From Acidimicrobiia bacterium (GTDB lineage: Bacteria; Actinomycetota; Acidimicrobiia; Acidimicrobiales; CATQHL01), in NCBI GenBank assembly GCA_009835395.1, contig VXXM01000038.1:1-64000 (forward strand): DNA of 64,000 nucleotides, read 5' to 3'. Of the stretch, positions 28,886 to 37,586 are shown piece by piece. A program made the position numbers and the translations under genes. Each line of letters starts with the position of its first letter. Positions within the stretch are counted from its first letter, which is position 1. The notes under the pieces are model-generated. The model saw only the letters and a program-made list of their open reading frames with translations. It was not told the origin of the DNA and searched no databases.

Positions 28886-30085
28886 CTACGCGCCGGCCTT
28901 GAAATCCTGCCAGCGCTTCAGCCACGTGTCGTAGGTCGCGTACTGGTCGGACTCGACCGGCGGCCACTCCACCGGCGGCGCCGCCTCGAACACGGCCGCG
29001 CGGTCCTCGTAGACGGCCCACTCGAACCCCATCGGGACGAGCCGTGCCATTGCCGCCGGATGGGTGACTGCCCAGCCGAGCATCTCTCCCTGTGCGAACT
29101 GCGTCGACTCGCTGATGGCGTCGTTCAACGCCTCGTACATGGCGTCGGTGGGTTCCACGTCGGAGGCGATGAACAGCGCATCGATCCAGGACCAGCCCAC
29201 CCCGGGCGGGAAGTGAACCTCCACGGGGATGTCGGCCTCGCGGGCCCTCAGAGCTGTCGGCGCGTTGTCCGGCCAGGCGGCGATGATCTCGCCTCGCGTG
29301 TAGGCGCCGGCGTATTCGGCATAGGGGTTCGCCAGGATGCCGAAGGAGGCGTCCCTGAACTCCTCCAGCTTCTCGAAGACCTGGTCGAGTTCATCCTCGG
29401 TCAGCAACCCCGGCGTGTCCCCGCCGAGCCCGAGCAGTCGGGCGACCATGATGATCACCGTGTTGCCGTCGTCGCCGATGGCGAACTTGCCTTCGTACTT
29501 CGGTTCGAGCAGTGACTCGAGGGACTCAGGTGGTCCGGTGCCGTCGTCGACGTAGGTCAAGCCCATGCTCGCCCAGGCGATCGGAACACCGATCACCCCG
29601 TCGTCCGTGTTGATGAGCGGCTCGTCGCGGAGTTCGGCGGGCAACTGCTCCCAGTTCGGGATCCGGCTGACGTCCAGCGGCTGCATCACCCCCGCGGCCT
29701 GAAGGGTCGGGAAGATGTTCTCGATGCCGACGCTGATGTCGTAGGTGCCCTTCTTGTTGATCGGGTCCTCGTTCGCCACCATGTAAGTCGCTTCGATCTC
29801 ATAGGTGGCGGGTTCGGGATCGCGCACCTCGTAGCCCTCCCACACCAGGAAGCGCACCGTTTCCTTCTCGGCCGCGGCCGGCGGCGCCGGCTCCGGTGGA
29901 GGAGGCGGCTCCGGGGCGGGTGCTGCCGGAGCAGGCGCCGGTGCCTCGCTGGTGTCCTCGTCGTCGCCGCAGGATGCTGCGATCAGCGTGAGGACCAAGA
30001 GCGATATTCCGAGTCGGAGAAGACCTCGCCTCCTGCCGACCGGACGCCGACGCTCGTGTCTGGATGTGATGGATCGCGCGTGCAT
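28886..30085 (-). CDS. Extracellular solute-binding lipoprotein, PotD-like
   Basis: LLVLTLIAASCGDDED lipobox; Pro/Ala linker; VRFLVWEGYE, GVPIAWASMGLTY; directly upstream of the ATPase/permease genes. Confidence 0.88.
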   Translation of the reverse strand: MHARSITSRHERRRPVGRRRGLLRLGISLLVLTLIAASCGDDEDTSEAPAPAPAAPAPEPPPPPEPAPPAAAEKETVRFLVWEGYEVRDPEPATYEIEATYMVANEDPINKKGTYDISVGIENIFPTLQAAGVMQPLDVSRIPNWEQLPAELRDEPLINTDDGVIGVPIAWASMGLTYVDDGTGPPESLESLLEPKYEGKFAIGDDGNTVIIMVARLLGLGGDTPGLLTEDELDQVFEKLEEFRDASFGILANPYAEYAGAYTRGEIIAAWPDNAPTALRAREADIPVEVHFPPGVGWSWIDALFIASDVEPTDAMYEALNDAISESTQFAQGEMLGWAVTHPAAMARLVPMGFEWAVYEDRAAVFEAAPPVEWPPVESDQYATYDTWLKRWQDFKAGA

Positions 30086-30242
30086 GATCTCCCTCCTTGA
30101 TCTCCGGCCCCCCGGGAGTCCCCGTGCCCTGGCGGACGCTCCGGCCCGGGCTGCGCACCTCGGACTGTAGTTCACACGGGGGTCCGGAGCGGCGGGCCGC
30201 AACGTGGCGCTCGACTGGCGGTCTCGCCCTCGAGCGCGCAGA

Positions 30243-30290: not shown

Positions 30291-31922
30291 TCAGTTCATC
30301 GAGGCCCAGATGAGTTCGTTGCCCTCGTACAGCTTCGGGACGAGGGTGGCGTCGAGCATCGCCAACCAGTCGGGCTTGGTCTCGTAGACGCCCAGGTCGA
30401 CCAGGTTCTCGATCTCCTCGCCCAGCCGTGCCACGTTCATCTGGCCGATCACCAGACCGTCGGGGGTCACGTCTTCGATGATCTTCTGGTCGGTCGTCCA
30501 GCGATACAGCTCGTGCTCGCGGGCCAGGAACATCTGGTTGCCGGCCGCCTCGATCCGCTCGAAGGCCAGGTTGATGGCCTCCTCCGGGTTGTCCGCGGCG
30601 AAGTAGTAGCCGCGCAGGCCGGCCCGCACGAAGTCCTCCACGACCGTCGGGTGCTCCTCGTAGAACGATCGTGTCGTCATGTAGATGGCGAAGCTTGCCG
30701 GCACCCCGTAGTCCAGCGGGTCGAAGGTGACGTAGTCGATGCCCGCCAGGTCCAGCCAGCGCGGCTCGTTCGAGCGGTACACCGGCAGGGCCTCGATGCC
30801 CAGCGCGAAGTGCTCGACGGGGTTGAAGCCCTCCAGGAGCAGCTCTTCGAAGGTCCCGCGCTGGAGGCCGGCTTCGGCGATCATGGCCTGGATGGCGATG
30901 GGGATGTCACCCTTGATTCCCATCGTCATGCCCTCCAGGTCGGTCAGGTCCGTGACGCCCGAAGCCGGGTCGATGAGCAACTGGGAGATCGCGGTATGCC
31001 CCAACTGGGCGAAGCCCATCAGGTCGGCGTCGCCCCGGATGTTCGTCGTGACCAACTCGCCGAAGGTGGCGGTGACGCCCAGCTGCACGGTGCCGGCGGC
31101 CAGCGCCGCGCTGTTGCCCGGCGCGAAGCCGGGCTGGATCGTCACGTCGAGGCACATGTCGTCGAAGTAGCCCTTGTCCGCGGCCACGACCACCTCGATG
31201 ATGCCGGCGGCGGCCGCCAGGTCGAAGCCGGTCATGAAGGTCAGCGGCCCGGCGGCGCGGTTGGCCTCGCAGCGTTCCGGCGTCCCGAAGCGGGGCAACC
31301 CGTCGGGACCGATCGCCGCTTGCGCGGCCACCTCTGCCGCCACGGCCTCCGCCGCCTCGGCGGCAGCGGCTGCCGCCTCCTCGGCCTGCGAAATCAACTC
31401 CTCCGCCTCGGCCTGTGCAGCGGCGGCCTCGGCCTGTGCGGCCGCGGCCTCGTCCTGAGCACTGGAGGCTTCGGCCTGCGCGGCGGCTGCCGCTTCCTGT
31501 GCCGCCGCGAGCGCGGCTTCTGCGGCCTCCAGATCGGCCTGGTTGCCTTCGGCCGCTGCCCTGGCGACGTCGGCGGCAGCGATCGCTTCGGCGGCCTGCG
31601 CGGCCGCGGCGGCGGCATCGGCCGCGGCGGCTTCGGCCGCGGCGGTCGCCGCTGAGGCGGCGGCATCGGCCGCCGAGGCTTCGGCGCGCGCTGCCTGAGC
31701 TTCGCTCATTGCGGCACCTGCGTCGCTTTGAGCCGCGGCCGCGTCACTCTGGGCGGCGGCTGCGCCGCTCTGCGCGGCCGCTGCCGCGCCGGCGGCCGCG
31801 TCGACGGCAGCCATCGTGTCGCTGTCGTCGTCCTCGGCACATGAGGCGGCGACAAGAGCGAGGACAGAGACCAATGCAACAGATGTCCACCGGACACCAT
31901 GTCGTATAGAGCGATTCAACAT
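30291..31922 (-). CDS. NMT1/THI5-like ABC transporter substrate-binding lipoprotein with Ala-rich coiled-coil stalk
   Basis: SVLALVAASCAEDDD lipobox; about 170 residues of AAAAQ/AEA-type sequence; then GPLTFMTGFDLAAAAGIIEVVVAADKGYFDDMCLDVTIQPGFAPGNSAALAAGTVQLGV. Confidence 0.85.
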   Translation of the reverse strand: MLNRSIRHGVRWTSVALVSVLALVAASCAEDDDSDTMAAVDAAAGAAAAAQSGAAAAQSDAAAAQSDAGAAMSEAQAARAEASAADAAASAATAAAEAAAADAAAAAAQAAEAIAAADVARAAAEGNQADLEAAEAALAAAQEAAAAAQAEASSAQDEAAAAQAEAAAAQAEAEELISQAEEAAAAAAEAAEAVAAEVAAQAAIGPDGLPRFGTPERCEANRAAGPLTFMTGFDLAAAAGIIEVVVAADKGYFDDMCLDVTIQPGFAPGNSAALAAGTVQLGVTATFGELVTTNIRGDADLMGFAQLGHTAISQLLIDPASGVTDLTDLEGMTMGIKGDIPIAIQAMIAEAGLQRGTFEELLLEGFNPVEHFALGIEALPVYRSNEPRWLDLAGIDYVTFDPLDYGVPASFAIYMTTRSFYEEHPTVVEDFVRAGLRGYYFAADNPEEAINLAFERIEAAGNQMFLAREHELYRWTTDQKIIEDVTPDGLVIGQMNVARLGEEIENLVDLGVYETKPDWLAMLDATLVPKLYEGNELIWASMN

Positions 31923-31997: not shown

Positions 31998-32858
31998 TCA
32001 GAGGGCCGCCGCCGACCCCCCTGGCAGATCCTGGGAGCTGTGCCAGCGCAGGACCCGAGTCTCGACGGCCGCGAGCAGCAGGTTGCCGATCACGCCGATG
32101 AACGCGAGCACGAAGATCGACCCCCACAGCTGGTCGATCAGCAGCCGCACCTGGCCCACGCGTGCGGTGTTGCCGAGACCCTCGGTGGAACCCCCGAACA
32201 TCTCGCCGATTACCGCTCCCACGAGGGCCAGGCCGACGCAGAGGCGCCCGGCGGAGAACAGGTACGGAAGCGATTGGGGGAATCGCAGCTTCCAGAAGAT
32301 CTCCGTCCTGCTGGCCGACACCGAGCGCAGAAGCTCGTAGGCGTTCGGGTCGACCGACCGCAACCCGGTGAACTCGTTGATCGTGAACGGGATGTAGCAG
32401 AACACCGCCGCGACCAGAACCTTGGGCCAGTAGCCGAACCCGAACCAGATCAGGAAGACCGGCGCCAGAACCGCCACCGGCGTGCTCTGCAGCAGGACGA
32501 TGACGGGCATCGAAGAGCGTTCCACGAAGCGAGAGTGCGCCATGAACGTGGCCACGATGAGCGACGCGCCCAGAGCGAGTCCGTATCCCCAGGCCGCTTC
32601 GAGCAGCGTCACCTGGGCGTGGCGCCAGTAGAAGCCCGGCTCTTCACGGAGATGCACGAGGATGCTCCAGGGCGTCGGGAGAGTCAGGGGCGAGACGTTG
32701 AACACCCGCACGTAGAGCTCCCAGATCGCGAACACGACGACGAGGCCCACGATCGGCGCCACGGTCATCGCCGAGCGACGCACGTGCTGCGGGCGCTGCG
32801 GGGGCGGCTGCTTGGTGCCGGTGCCCGGTGCGCTCTGCTGGGTGGCTTCCGTGGTCAT
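31998..32858 (-). CDS. ABC transporter permease, SsuC/TauC (NitT/TauT) type
   Basis: LPTPWSILVHLREEPGFYWRHAQVTLLEAAWGYGLAL, LLRSVSASRTEIFWKLRFPQSLPYLFSAGRL. Confidence 0.9.
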   Translation of the reverse strand: MTTEATQQSAPGTGTKQPPPQRPQHVRRSAMTVAPIVGLVVVFAIWELYVRVFNVSPLTLPTPWSILVHLREEPGFYWRHAQVTLLEAAWGYGLALGASLIVATFMAHSRFVERSSMPVIVLLQSTPVAVLAPVFLIWFGFGYWPKVLVAAVFCYIPFTINEFTGLRSVDPNAYELLRSVSASRTEIFWKLRFPQSLPYLFSAGRLCVGLALVGAVIGEMFGGSTEGLGNTARVGQVRLLIDQLWGSIFVLAFIGVIGNLLLAAVETRVLRWHSSQDLPGGSAAAL

Positions 32859-33706
32859 CGGGCCGAGACCTCGCCGAGGGAGCGGCGCACGTTGCGCATG
32901 TGCACCAGGTAGCGCTCGTCGTCCTCCATCTGCACCGAGCGGGGACGGGGCAGCGTGATCGTCTCGGCGTGCACGACGCGGCCCGGCTTGGTGGCCATCA
33001 CCAGGACCCGGTCGGAGAGGATCACCGCCTCGGGAATGCTGTGGGTCACGAAGACGACCGTGTGCCCGGTGCGCTCCCAGAGGTCCAGCAGGAGGTAGCG
33101 CATCTCGTTGCGGGTGATCTCGTCGAGGGCCGAGAAGGGCTCGTCCATCAGCAGCACGGGCGCGCCCAGCGCGAAGCAGCGCACCAGCGAGACCCGCTGC
33201 TGCATGCCGCCGGACAGCTCCTTCGGGAGCCGGTCCAGGAAGTCCCCCAGACCGACGGTCTCCAGCAGTTCCAGGATCTCGGACTCGCTGAGAGGCGGGT
33301 GGATGGCTCCCCGCCGGTTCACCTCGGCGAGCAGGGTGACGTTACGGCGCACGGTCCGCCAACCCAGCAGCGACGGCGTCTGCGGGGCGAAGCCGATCTG
33401 CTTGGTGTCCCGCGCCTGCGCCGGGCTGTTGCCGTCGACGGTGACGGTGCCGAGCTCGTAGGGCAGCAGGCCGCCCACGACGCGCAACAGGGTCGACTTG
33501 CCGCAGCCGCTCGGGCCGATCAGGCTGACGAACTCGCCCGGCTCGATCTCGATGTCGATCTCATCGAGTGCGTGCAGGAAACTGCGACCGGTCGGGAACC
33601 ACTTCGAGACTCCGCTGATGGAGACCGGGGCGCCGATGCTGCGTGCGGAGGATCCGGCAGCGCTCGGCGCCGCCGTGCGGCTCCCGCCGGAGGTCGGGCT
33701 TGGCAC
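32855..33706 (-). CDS. ABC transporter ATP-binding protein, SsuB/TauB (NitT/TauT) type
   Basis: LIGPSGCGKSTLLRVVGGLL, ELSGGMQQRVSLVRCFALGAPVLLMDEPFSALDEITRNEM; GTG start inferred. Confidence 0.93.
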   Translation of the reverse strand: MPSPTSGGSRTAAPSAAGSSARSIGAPVSISGVSKWFPTGRSFLHALDEIDIEIEPGEFVSLIGPSGCGKSTLLRVVGGLLPYELGTVTVDGNSPAQARDTKQIGFAPQTPSLLGWRTVRRNVTLLAEVNRRGAIHPPLSESEILELLETVGLGDFLDRLPKELSGGMQQRVSLVRCFALGAPVLLMDEPFSALDEITRNEMRYLLLDLWERTGHTVVFVTHSIPEAVILSDRVLVMATKPGRVVHAETITLPRPRSVQMEDDERYLVHMRNVRRSLGEVSAR

Positions 33707-33897
33707 GGCGCCATCGTAAGCGGCGCGACACGGGCCCGTCATGGCCGGCTGCAGCCCCTGGATTCGCCCGCGCATGGCTGGGCTACGGTTGCCGCCACCG
33801 CTCGGGCACGCGACCGCACACCGGCAACCGAGCGCCGTGCCGGCGTCCGGCGGGCGATCCGGATGGCCCGCCCCCGGCGGCGGAGGAAGGAGGCCTC

Positions 33898-34890
33898 GTG
33901 TCCGCCGGATTGATCGACGTTCATTCGCACCACTATCCCGGCAGCTACCTCGACGCCTGCCGCCGCAGCGACAGCGGCCTGGAGCACTACGTCCGTGAGG
34001 ACGGCCGCCTCGTCGTGCTGCAGGACGGGGCCGTGGCCGCCGCCATCCCGCAACCGCTGCCGTCGATGGACCACCGCGTCGCGATGATGGACGAGGTGGA
34101 CGTGGACGTCCAGGTGATGTCCGTGTCGGCGCCGAACGTATTCCGGCTGCCGCGCGACCTGCGCGTGCCGCTCACGCGCGACCTCAACGACGAGTTCGGC
34201 GACCTGGTGTCCGGTGGCGGCGGGCGCCTGCGGTTCTTCGCCAGCCTCCCGCTTCCCGACGTCGACGCCTCGCTGGCAGAGTTGGATCGTGTCCTGGACG
34301 CCCCGGGCGTGGTGGGCGTCATGCTCTGCACCACCGTGGACCGGCGCACCCTCGACGACGATGACTTCGCGCCGTTGTGGGAGGAACTCTCCCGGCGTCG
34401 GGCCGTGGCGTTCGTCCACCCCACTACCGCCTGTAGCACCGAGGGCCTGCGCGAGTTCGCGCTGTCGCTGGCACTCGACTTCCTGGCTGAGACGACGAAC
34501 GCCATCGGCAGGTTGACCTACTCGGGCACCTTCGAGCGGTACCCGGACATCCGCTGGATCTTCAGCCACCTCGGCGGGACCGTGCCCTTCGTCCACCACC
34601 GCTTCGACAACTACGCGGGGCAGTTCCCCGAGTGCCGCCGTCACACCACCCGCCGCCCGTCGGAGCAACTGAGGGATCTCTACTTCGACACCGTCAGCAC
34701 GCATCCCGCCGCCATGCGCTGCGCCTTCGAGACGTTCGACATCTCGCAGTTCCTCTTCGGAACCGACTACCCGCACGTGCCGGGCGGGCTGCGCGCTTTC
34801 GTGGAGACCCTCGAGGCCGCCGGACTGCCCGCGGAGGATCTCGCCAGGGTGCGCCGCCACAACGCCGCAGCGTTACTCGGAATCGAATGA
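33898..34890 (+). CDS. ACMSD-type amidohydrolase (amidohydrolase 2 family)
   Basis: LIDVHSHHYPGSY, WIFSHLGGTVPFVHHRFD, FGTDYPHVPGGLRAF; GTG start. Confidence 0.88.
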   Translation: MSAGLIDVHSHHYPGSYLDACRRSDSGLEHYVREDGRLVVLQDGAVAAAIPQPLPSMDHRVAMMDEVDVDVQVMSVSAPNVFRLPRDLRVPLTRDLNDEFGDLVSGGGGRLRFFASLPLPDVDASLAELDRVLDAPGVVGVMLCTTVDRRTLDDDDFAPLWEELSRRRAVAFVHPTTACSTEGLREFALSLALDFLAETTNAIGRLTYSGTFERYPDIRWIFSHLGGTVPFVHHRFDNYAGQFPECRRHTTRRPSEQLRDLYFDTVSTHPAAMRCAFETFDISQFLFGTDYPHVPGGLRAFVETLEAAGLPAEDLARVRRHNAAALLGIE

Positions 34891-34971
34891 CACTCCGATG
34901 GCCGGTCTCGGAGTCGTGATGGTAATTTTTCCGGTCGTGCGGAGAACCACGTAACGGCGCCGGGGGGACTC

Positions 34972-35673
34972 ATGCCGCAACCCACCGAGGTATCCGACTT
35001 CGTCAAGGAGCGATTGGCGCGGATTCGCGGCGGCTTGCGGCTCTACAAGGATCTTCAGCCCGGCGACACCGCCTTCGTGGTCATCGACATGCAGAACGCC
35101 TTCGTCGCCGAGGGGGGCGTCATCGAGGTTCCCGCCAGCCGCGAGATCATCCCCGTGATCAACCGCATGGCCGCCGCATGCCGGGAGATCGGCGTCCCGG
35201 TGATCTGGATCCGCTCCCATCACCCCAAGGGCGGCTCCGACTGGCGCCACTTCTTCGATCACTTCGTGCGCCCCGAGCGGCGCGAAGCCGCCGCGGCCGC
35301 CCTCTCCGACGATGCGCCGACTTCGCGTTTCCATCCCGACATGGACATACGCGACGAGGACTACATCGTCTTCAAGAACCGCTACTCGTGCATGATCCCC
35401 GGTTCATCGTCCCTGGAGCGGCTCGTGCGCAGCCTCGGCCGCGACACCCTCCTGCTGGCGGGCACCAAGACCAACATCTGCGTCGAGTCGACGGCGCGGG
35501 ACGCCATGATGCTGGACTTCAGGGTGGTGGTCCTCAGCGACGCCACCGCCGCGCTCACCGACGAGGAGCACCAGGCCTCCCTCAACGTCCTGATCCAGGA
35601 GTTCGCCGACATCCTCGTCACCGACGAGGTGGTCGAGGAGTTGCGTGCCAACGCCGGAGGTGCCGACCGATGA
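34972..35673 (+). CDS. Isochorismatase-like cysteine hydrolase
   Basis: AFVVIDMQNAFV (catalytic Asp), VFKNRYSCMIPGSSLERLVRSLGRDTLLLAGTKTNICVESTARDAMMLDF (catalytic Cys). Confidence 0.9.
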   Translation: MPQPTEVSDFVKERLARIRGGLRLYKDLQPGDTAFVVIDMQNAFVAEGGVIEVPASREIIPVINRMAAACREIGVPVIWIRSHHPKGGSDWRHFFDHFVRPERREAAAAALSDDAPTSRFHPDMDIRDEDYIVFKNRYSCMIPGSSSLERLVRSLGRDTLLLAGTKTNICVESTARDAMMLDFRVVVLSDATAALTDEEHQASLNVLIQEFADILVTDEVVEELRANAGGADR

Positions 35674-37586
35674 CCGACACTCTCGCCCCCGAAGACCTCA
35701 TCGGCGGCGGCAACGGCAGCCTCGACCCGGTCACCTTCGAGATCCTCCGGTCGCGCCTGTCGGCCATCAACGACGAGGCGGCCATGACGATGCGCCTCGT
35801 GTCGGGCTCGCCGGTGGCCAACGAGGCCTACGACATGAACGTGGGCCTCATGGACGCCGACGGCGACTGCTTCGCCATCGGCATGTACATCACCATCCAC
35901 GCGCTCGCTCTGAGCTCCACGGTCAAGGACATCAGGCAGCGCTTCGCCGCCGACGACGTCGGTCCCGGCGACGTGTTCATGTCCAACGACCCCTACGTCG
36001 GGGCCTGTCACCAGATGGACGTGGCGGTCGTGGCCCCGATCTTCGCCGGCGGCCGGCTGGTGGCGTGGACCGGCTCCACGGTGCACCAGATCGACCTCGG
36101 CGGCCCGGTCGAGGGTCAGGTGCAGCTCGGCGCCACGTCCATCTGGAGTGAGCAGCCGCTGTTCCCGCCCATCAAGATCGTCGACGCCGGGGAGCTTCGC
36201 CCCGACGTGGAGCGGGGCTACCTCCGCCGCACCCGCCTGCCCCATCTCGTGGACCTGGACCTGAAGGCCATGATCGCCGGCTGCAACGTCGGGGTGGCAC
36301 GGGTCCAGGATCTGACCGAGCGCTACGGAATCGACGTCGTCCTGGCCGCCATCGAGGGGATCAACGTGGCCACCGCCGCCCGGTTCCGGGCCCGGCTGGC
36401 GGAGCTGCCCGACGGCACCTGGTCGCACCGGGGCTACATCGAGTACGACGAGGTGTACCCGGTCGTTGTGGAGATGACCAAGAGCGGCGACTCGCTCACG
36501 TTCGACTACACGAAGAGCGCCGATCAGGCCGGCGCCGTCATCAACTGCACCCGCCCGGCCTGCGTGGGCGCCGTCGTTGCCGCCGTCCTCCCGTACCTCT
36601 GCTACGACATGGCGTGGTCGCCCGCCGGGCTGCAGCGGGCCATCGACGTGCGCACCCGCGAGGGCACCGTCGTCCACGCGGCCTGGCCGGCCGGCACCTC
36701 CAAAGCAACCACCACCGGCAGCTTCATGGCGACGATCTCCGCGGGTGTCTGCCTGTCGAAGTTGCTGGCGGCGAGCGAGGGGCATCTCCGCCAGTTCATG
36801 TCCACCTGGATGGGCGGGCTCTACGTGGAGGACATGTTCGGGGTGGATCAGCGGGGCGAGTTCTTCGGCGCGGCGATCCTCGACGCCATGGCGGGGGGAT
36901 CGGGGGCCCGAGCCTTCGCCGACGGGCTGGACGCCGGCGGCTTCCTGGACTCGCCATCGGCGATCATCGCCAACATCGAGGACATCGAGTACAGCTACCC
37001 GGTTCTCTACCTGTCGCGGCGGATCCAGGCCGACACCGGGGGCGCCGGCAAGTATCGCGGCGGCAACACGCTCGCCATGACATACATCACCCACGACGTC
37101 GAGCGGTTGCCGACGAAGATCCTTCACGCCATCGGCACCTTCCAGCCGGGCTCCATCGGCGTGGCCGGCGGGTACCCGTCGAACACCAACCAGTTCGTCA
37201 TCAAGCGCGACACCAACGTCCGTGACCTGCTCGCCGGCGGTGCGGTGCCCGACGACATCGGCGCCCTCGACGGCGAACTCGAGATCTTCGCCGACCCCAT
37301 CGTCAAGACCTCCCAGGGGCCCGACGACGTCCACCGTTACGTCGCCATGGGCGGGGGCGGATACCTCGACCCCCTGGACCGCGAGCCCGAACTGGTTCTG
37401 GCCGACTACGTCGTCGGTGCCGTGACGGTGGCGCACGCTCGCGACGCCTACGGCGTGGTGATCGACGTCGACGGGATGTGCGTGGACGAGGCCGCCACCG
37501 ACCGGCGACGCCGCCAGATCCGCGACGAGCGCCGCGGCTCGGCAGCGGTTCCAGGCGCAGCGACGCGGCAGCGGGGATCGACCTGA
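35670..37586 (+). CDS. Hydantoinase B/oxoprolinase (HyuB) family protein
   Basis: DPVTFEILRSRLSAINDEAAMTMRLVSGSPVANEAYDMNVGLMDADGDCF, FMSNDPYVGACHQMDVAVVAP. Confidence 0.92.
   Translation: MTDTLAPEDLIGGGNGSLDPVTFEILRSRLSAINDEAAMTMRLVSGSPVANEAYDMNVGLMDADGDCFAIGMYITIHALALSSTVKDIRQRFAADDVGPGDVFMSNDPYVGACHQMDVAVVAPIFAGGRLVAWTGSTVHQIDLGGPVEGQVQLGATSIWSEQPLFPPIKIVDAGELRPDVERGYLRRTRLPHLVDLDLKAMIAGCNVGVARVQDLTERYGIDVVLAAIEGINVATAARFRARLAELPDGTWSHRGYIEYDEVYPVVVEMTKSGDSLTFDYTKSADQAGAVINCTRPACVGAVVAAVLPYLCYDMAWSPAGLQRAIDVRTREGTVVHAAWPAGTSKATTTGSFMATISAGVCLSKLLAASEGHLRQFMSTWMGGLYVEDMFGVDQRGEFFGAAILDAMAGGSGARAFADGLDAGGFLDSPSAIIANIEDIEYSYPVLYLSRRIQADTGGAGKYRGGNTLAMTYITHDVERLPTKILHAIGTFQPGSIGVAGGYPSNTNQFVIKRDTNVRDLLAGGAVPDDIGALDGELEIFADPIVKTSQGPDDVHRYVAMGGGGYLDPLDREPELVLADYVVGAVTVAHARDAYGVVIDVDGMCVDEAATDRRRRQIRDERRGSAAVPGAATRQRGST

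Follow-up and report, generated by a model that had tools for sequence, protein, structure and literature searches.

An alanine-rich helical stalk, probably a hairpin, shared by receptor lipoproteins of one Acidimicrobiia genus

The locus and its transporter

The window, meaning the whole 64,000-nucleotide stretch of Acidimicrobiia DNA analysed here, encodes a substrate-binding lipoprotein with a long alanine-rich stalk between its lipid anchor and its receptor domain (Table 1). Direct reading of the open reading frame (ORF) gives the signal peptide, the lipobox LVAASC and the cysteine (Cys28) of a bacterial lipoprotein, while the receptor domain scores 97.4 bits against PF09084, whose curated cut-off is 20.5. 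The mature segment running from the cysteine to the sequence IGPDGLP is 176 residues long and contains 100 Ala (57%), 20 Glu, 13 Gln and 12 Asp, together with two Arg and no Lys. The initial annotation had described the same combination of lipoprotein, NMT1-type receptor and unusual alanine-rich coiled-coil segment. Alanine codons are mixed (52 GCC, 30 GCG, 14 GCA and 8 GCT), and the stalk goes beyond what GC-rich DNA alone would produce.

Table 1. Features of the stalked lipoprotein and its transporter, in window coordinates
Feature	Position	Strand	Basis
Stalked substrate-binding lipoprotein, 543 aa	30291..31922	-	ATG at 31922; open frame and translation; PF09084
Signal peptide and lipobox LVAASC	31839..31922	-	Cys28 codon 31839-31841; direct sequence reading
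Stalk arm 1	31548..31829	-	AF2 helix, mature residues 5-98; Ala at heptad a/d
Turn Gly99-Asn100	31542..31547	-	Helix C-cap then N-cap; break in both AF2 models
Stalk arm 2, AAAAQAE heptads	31317..31541	-	AF2 helix, mature residues 101-175
NMT1/THI5-like substrate-binding domain	30576..31199	-	PF09084 residues 242-449, E=1.4e-27
ABC permease, same transporter	31998..32858	-	PF00528, E=4.8e-26
ABC ATPase, same transporter	32855..33775	-	PF00005, E=6.8e-31

The start of the predicted arm 1 helix overlaps a short acidic linker, AEDDDSDTM. Directly upstream of the ORF, on the same strand, are genes for the permease and the ATPase, the former near SsuC/TauC and the latter near nitrate/taurine types, both scoring below the equivalog cut-offs. 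The transporter is thus an ordinary NitT/TauT-type importer, the stalk excepted. Beside it, at 33643-37586 on the plus strand, lie divergent ORFs that read as amidohydrolase, isochorismatase-like and hydantoinase-B-like, which suggests a substrate of the ureide or hydantoin type. The adjoining PotD-like substrate-binding lipoprotein (28886-30088, minus strand) has a Pro/Ala-rich linker (APAPAPAAPAPEPPPPPEPAPPAAAEKE) and no hairpin, and linkers of this kind are the commoner sort in the genome.

Distribution of the module

The initial annotation had advised a search for other binding proteins with the same insert, and such proteins proved to be numerous. When the window stalk alone was searched against its own genome, 15 further places were found. 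A profile was then built from 15 of the stalks, with presence set at E<=1e-6 and every candidate scored for the per-genome counts. This recovered 121 stalked ORFs across the genus, including 24 lipoproteins in the window genome and 25, 19 and 15 ORFs in genomes G002, G004 and G007, respectively. All eight genus members carry the stalk, with copy numbers from 5 to 25 that are low where the genome is incomplete, and a lipobox-like site was seen by pattern in 104 of the 121 ORFs. With the same profile and threshold, no stalk was found in the rest of the order, covered by 189 genomes, or in 296 genomes of the phylum (window genome aside). The sister genus supplied one genome with two copies, both on receptors apparently orthologous to two in the genus. 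The window stalk represents a single instance of an N-terminal lipoprotein module specific to the genus.

What the module carries is diverse. The domains found on stalks are PF00496, PF01547, PF13407, PF13458, PF04069, PF02608, PF09084 and an M16 peptidase, with one further protein giving a weak PF00532 match and two giving no good Pfam match. The carriers therefore span at least seven substrate-binding families plus the one peptidase, and nearly all are nutrient receptors. In the window genome, which has some 60 substrate-binding loci, only about 18 of these are stalked; in most of the others, the linker is either Pro-rich (PAPEPPPPPEP) or short. The peptidase, of the M16 insulinase type (L101:4939-8151), has an atypical lipobox, VGSAC. 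As for the stalk itself, that of the window ORF has no Pfam match and no sequence match to a solved structure at E<=1, and no description of the module was found in the literature searched.

Sequence anatomy of the stalk

The stalks share a near-invariant motif, LAQATAEGN-xx-AVAAAEAALA, at whose centre lies a glycine. This glycine is present in 117 of 117 aligned stalks, a count that is partly by construction since a turn pattern was used to place them, and the residue that follows is Asn in 99, Ser in 18 and never anything else. The profile search that found the stalks does not depend on an exact turn, and Gly-Asn also stands at this point in the four ORFs missed by the turn pattern. Both Asn and Ser in that position are good helix N-caps. 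Around the turn of the 117 stalks, the LAQATAE before it and the xxAVAAAEAALA after it change little, while the alanine codons are free to vary. Two receptors of the window genome, L207 (C80:83297) and L253 (C41:16903), have Ala/Glu-rich stalks in which the exact turn motif is missing; the centre of the L253 stalk reads SGDAES, again Gly and then an N-cap residue.

On either side of the turn, the arms are built of heptads. Alanine occupies 95% of the a positions and 93% of the d positions of arm 1 (104-105 stalks); in arm 2, it occupies 75% of the a positions, with Leu, Val, Ile or Met in a further 23%, and 88% of the d positions. Position e of arm 2 is mostly Gln, Glu or Arg, and b, c and f are each about 60% Ala. 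A sister-genus copy, elsewhere poorer in alanine, has Ala at all 14 of the arm 1 a/d positions counted. Distances from the cysteine to the central glycine fall on heptad steps (61, 75, 82, 89-90, 96-97 and 103 residues), a quantisation with a mod-7 chi-square p of 1e-24, uncorrected for relatedness, and the stalk DNA has a 21-base tandem periodicity. The median net charge of a stalk is -25, with Arg at 1.8%, Lys at 0.1% and Thr at 2.4%.

Conservation and selection

The initial annotation had allowed that the stalk might be an artefact, missing from close orthologs. In fact, it is kept, in open frames, in four orthologs of the same genus with receptor domains 74-98% identical to that of the window, and because these come from separate MAGs, an assembly or frameshift artefact is ruled out. 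Between aligned orthologs, arm 1 differs by an indel of 7 residues and arm 2 by indels of 14 and 3. Where inspected, homologs from the order's other families, at 35-47% identity, lack the stalk and have linkers that are short, acidic or Pro-rich.

Among the orthologs of the window ORF, dN/dS is 0.08-0.18 in the stalk versus 0.05-0.09 in the domain, and the stalk is under purifying selection. Its dS is about 1.5 to 3.5 times that of the domain, which suggests re-registration of the repeats or exchange with paralogous stalks. In principle, low-complexity sequence in GC-rich DNA could have expanded neutrally and been spread by gene conversion, giving a stalk devoid of any selected function, and the raised dS, the 21-base periodicity and the exchange of stalks between genes (see below) would all fit such an origin. 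The dN/dS values speak against it, as do motif residues that stay fixed over 24 paralogs while their codons vary, and alanine kept at about 90% of a/d positions even in the diverged sister-genus copy. Selection and heptad data together have already largely refuted neutral expansion, which we regard as very improbable, and low-complexity junk is ruled out by the same dN/dS range and by fixed residues despite varied codons.

Hairpin or continuous helix

An AlphaFold2 (AF2) model was made from the window stalk and three orthologs, that is, from four low-complexity sequences. It shows the two helices of Table 1 with a break at G99-N100, and its pLDDT averages 89 and reaches 98 from about residue 60 to 140 (pTM 0.67). 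A full-length model from four sequences breaks at the same place; its receptor half mostly has pLDDT below 50, and only the stalk part was used. The predicted stalk is thus helical rather than disordered, as the initial annotation had supposed, while its further reading of the segment as one helix gives way to two, split by the conserved Gly-Asn. Foldseek matches to the stalk model are solved antiparallel hairpins, all at E above 0.1, whose aligned columns exceed either helix; examples include Vipp1 (rmsd 3.0 over 129 columns) and the receptor domain of a colicin (3.0 over 114).

Further evidence comes from comparison of the arms. Long first arms go with long second arms, both between the 22 receptor groups (r=0.85) and inside them (r=0.67), with an arm ratio of 1.04. 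In the window's own ortholog group, the two lengths are not coupled (85/94, 91/77 and 98/77). Covariation across the turn falls on the antiparallel diagonal in 12 of 30 cases against 5.5 expected (p=0.004, about 29 effective sequences). The length correlation must be read alongside the exchange of entire stalks between genes, which is enough on its own to alter the two arm lengths in step and which is seen where receptors 98% identical carry arms of 61/53 and 89/87.

Orthologous receptors that are 94-98% identical have stalks of different length class at L145, L114, L099 and L159. At L145 and L099, the nearest stalk belongs to another receptor, a pattern that suggests stalk swapping.

The initial annotation had favoured a single rigid rod. 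In this case, one continuous helix or a parallel coiled coil would lift the receptor 15-25 nm through the wall. The a/d register does run unbroken through the Gly-Asn, which fits a continuous helix too, and other receptors of the genome bear long Pro-rich linkers at the equivalent place, so that reach may matter. However, the 3-4 spacing of heptads is mirror-symmetric, making the register indecisive between hairpin and rod, whereas the invariant glycine followed by Asn or Ser, the matched and co-varying arms and the two helices predicted by AF2, with a break where pLDDT is 98, all argue against a rod. Moreover, the receptor's own permease is encoded next door, and a rigid rod would keep the two far apart. 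A rod is accordingly an unlikely structure, and most likely the two predicted helices pack against each other as an antiparallel hairpin about 8-14 nm long.

Resemblance to known systems

The class that the modelled stalk appears to join is the Alacoil, or alanine zipper, as found in Rop- and ferritin-type helix pairs. The likeness lies in the core, where 75-95% of heptad a/d residues are Ala, and in the short Gly-Asn-type connection between helices, a kind of link that is standard for tight helix-helix joins. Known Alacoils are short parts of globular proteins, whereas the stalk has arms of 50-95 residues and is used repeatedly as a lipoprotein module.

Several other systems were compared with the stalk. 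Braun's lipoprotein, Lpp, consists of a short, unbroken helix that trimerises and is joined to peptidoglycan through a C-terminal Lys. Like the stalk, it is a lipid-anchored heptad helix in which length changes of heptad size preserve register, but the stalk has a turn in the middle, no Lys, a core of Ala rather than Leu, Val or Ile, and a receptor at its C-terminus, and it was rejected as an Lpp for want of the single helix and terminal Lys. Were the stalk to trimerise, as the initial annotation had proposed, its chemistry would be unlike that of Lpp. An ER/K single alpha-helix rod was also rejected, as the Glu-Arg/Lys alternation is absent (Arg and Lys content and charge as given above). The actinobacterial cell-wall hydrolases RipA (6ewy) and Cg1735 (8aud) likewise have a long antiparallel hairpin N-terminal to an envelope domain, with a Foldseek TM of 0.63 by query for 8aud. 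Neither hairpin is an alanine zipper or a lipoprotein receptor stalk, and neither has a significant sequence match to the stalk.

In modular use, the closest parallel is with the DUF1735/BACON spacers of Bacteroidota, a lipid-anchored N-terminal module that precedes many C-terminal domains and has 46 copies in B. thetaiotaomicron (PMC11216935). Here too, one lineage-restricted N-terminal module occurs in dozens of copies per genome. These spacers are Ig-like beta-sandwiches on polysaccharide-binding proteins and glycosidases, while the stalk is predicted by AF2 to be all-helical and sits almost entirely on ABC receptors, so the similarity is one of modular use alone. Finally, among solved structures of like composition, Maxi, a type I antifreeze protein, comes nearest in shape: its Ala-rich helix folds into a hairpin, and two such hairpins make up a four-helix bundle (PMC5304152). 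It is also the top Foldseek match (PDB 4ke2; E=0.22, with 39% identity arising from composition), and no homology is claimed. Maxi is built of TX10 repeats, each of 11 residues, and its core is filled with water, whereas the stalk has heptads and little Thr, and a type I antifreeze assignment was therefore rejected.

Possible roles

The proposed module would run from the lipid anchor through a short acidic linker into the long hairpin with its Gly-Asn turn, and then through a second linker to the receptor or enzyme. An alpha-helix rises 1.5 A per residue, and the double helix would project 8-14 nm outward from the membrane. As an Alacoil-type antiparallel zipper, it would return the receptor to the vicinity of the lipid anchor, the membrane and the permease that it has to meet. 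The structure of the stalk is well supported, and its function we infer. On balance, we favour a modular alanine-zipper hairpin, which would set the receptor down at the membrane again and may well also oligomerise or cluster receptors.

One means by which such a hairpin could act is through its alanine-rich outer faces, which may pack hairpin on hairpin into dimeric four-helix bundles or larger assemblies, bringing receptors together in pairs or clusters next to their transporters. Since Ala faces beyond a/d would lie exposed in a lone hairpin, we tentatively rank dimerisation or bundling first among the possible purposes. The stalk on an M16 peptidase would also fit a role in location or clustering better than one tied to transport.

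Another means is wall pinning, where an acidic hairpin directed outward threads or fills the wall layer like a pin or brush, retaining or positioning its lipoprotein with no specific contacts between stalks. The strongly negative and almost Lys-free composition would suit this, and reuse of the stalk on the peptidase as well as on receptors points to a function in location rather than transport. Against it, the broad Ala faces of a lone hairpin would be left exposed, and the stalk has no known wall-binding motif. Pinning ranks next after clustering as a purpose for the stalk, and we consider it rather unlikely.

Substrate-binding lipoproteins are normally viewed as a receptor on a passive tether. 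In this one genus, the same structured module, its core under selection, lies beneath about 24 receptors of unrelated families, with its length varied by heptads and its copies exchanged between genes. The module thereby opens to experiment the question of whether a shared coiled-coil code can organise the uptake receptors of a bacterium, and the stalks of the genus offer a natural, graded-length series of predicted alanine-zipper hairpins. Taken furthest, the hairpins would be an assembly code in which receptors and peptidase with stalks of matching length bundle through their Ala faces and the number of heptads selects the partners. Such a code is a doubtful proposition, but if true, it would give this presumed sponge symbiont a membrane array of mixed receptors.

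That the genus lives in sponges is likely from the names of its relatives' MAGs, APA_bin_18, COS4_bin_33 and IRC4_bin_37, because their prefixes match Aplysina, Coscinoderma and Ircinia, the sponges sampled in PMC8163846.
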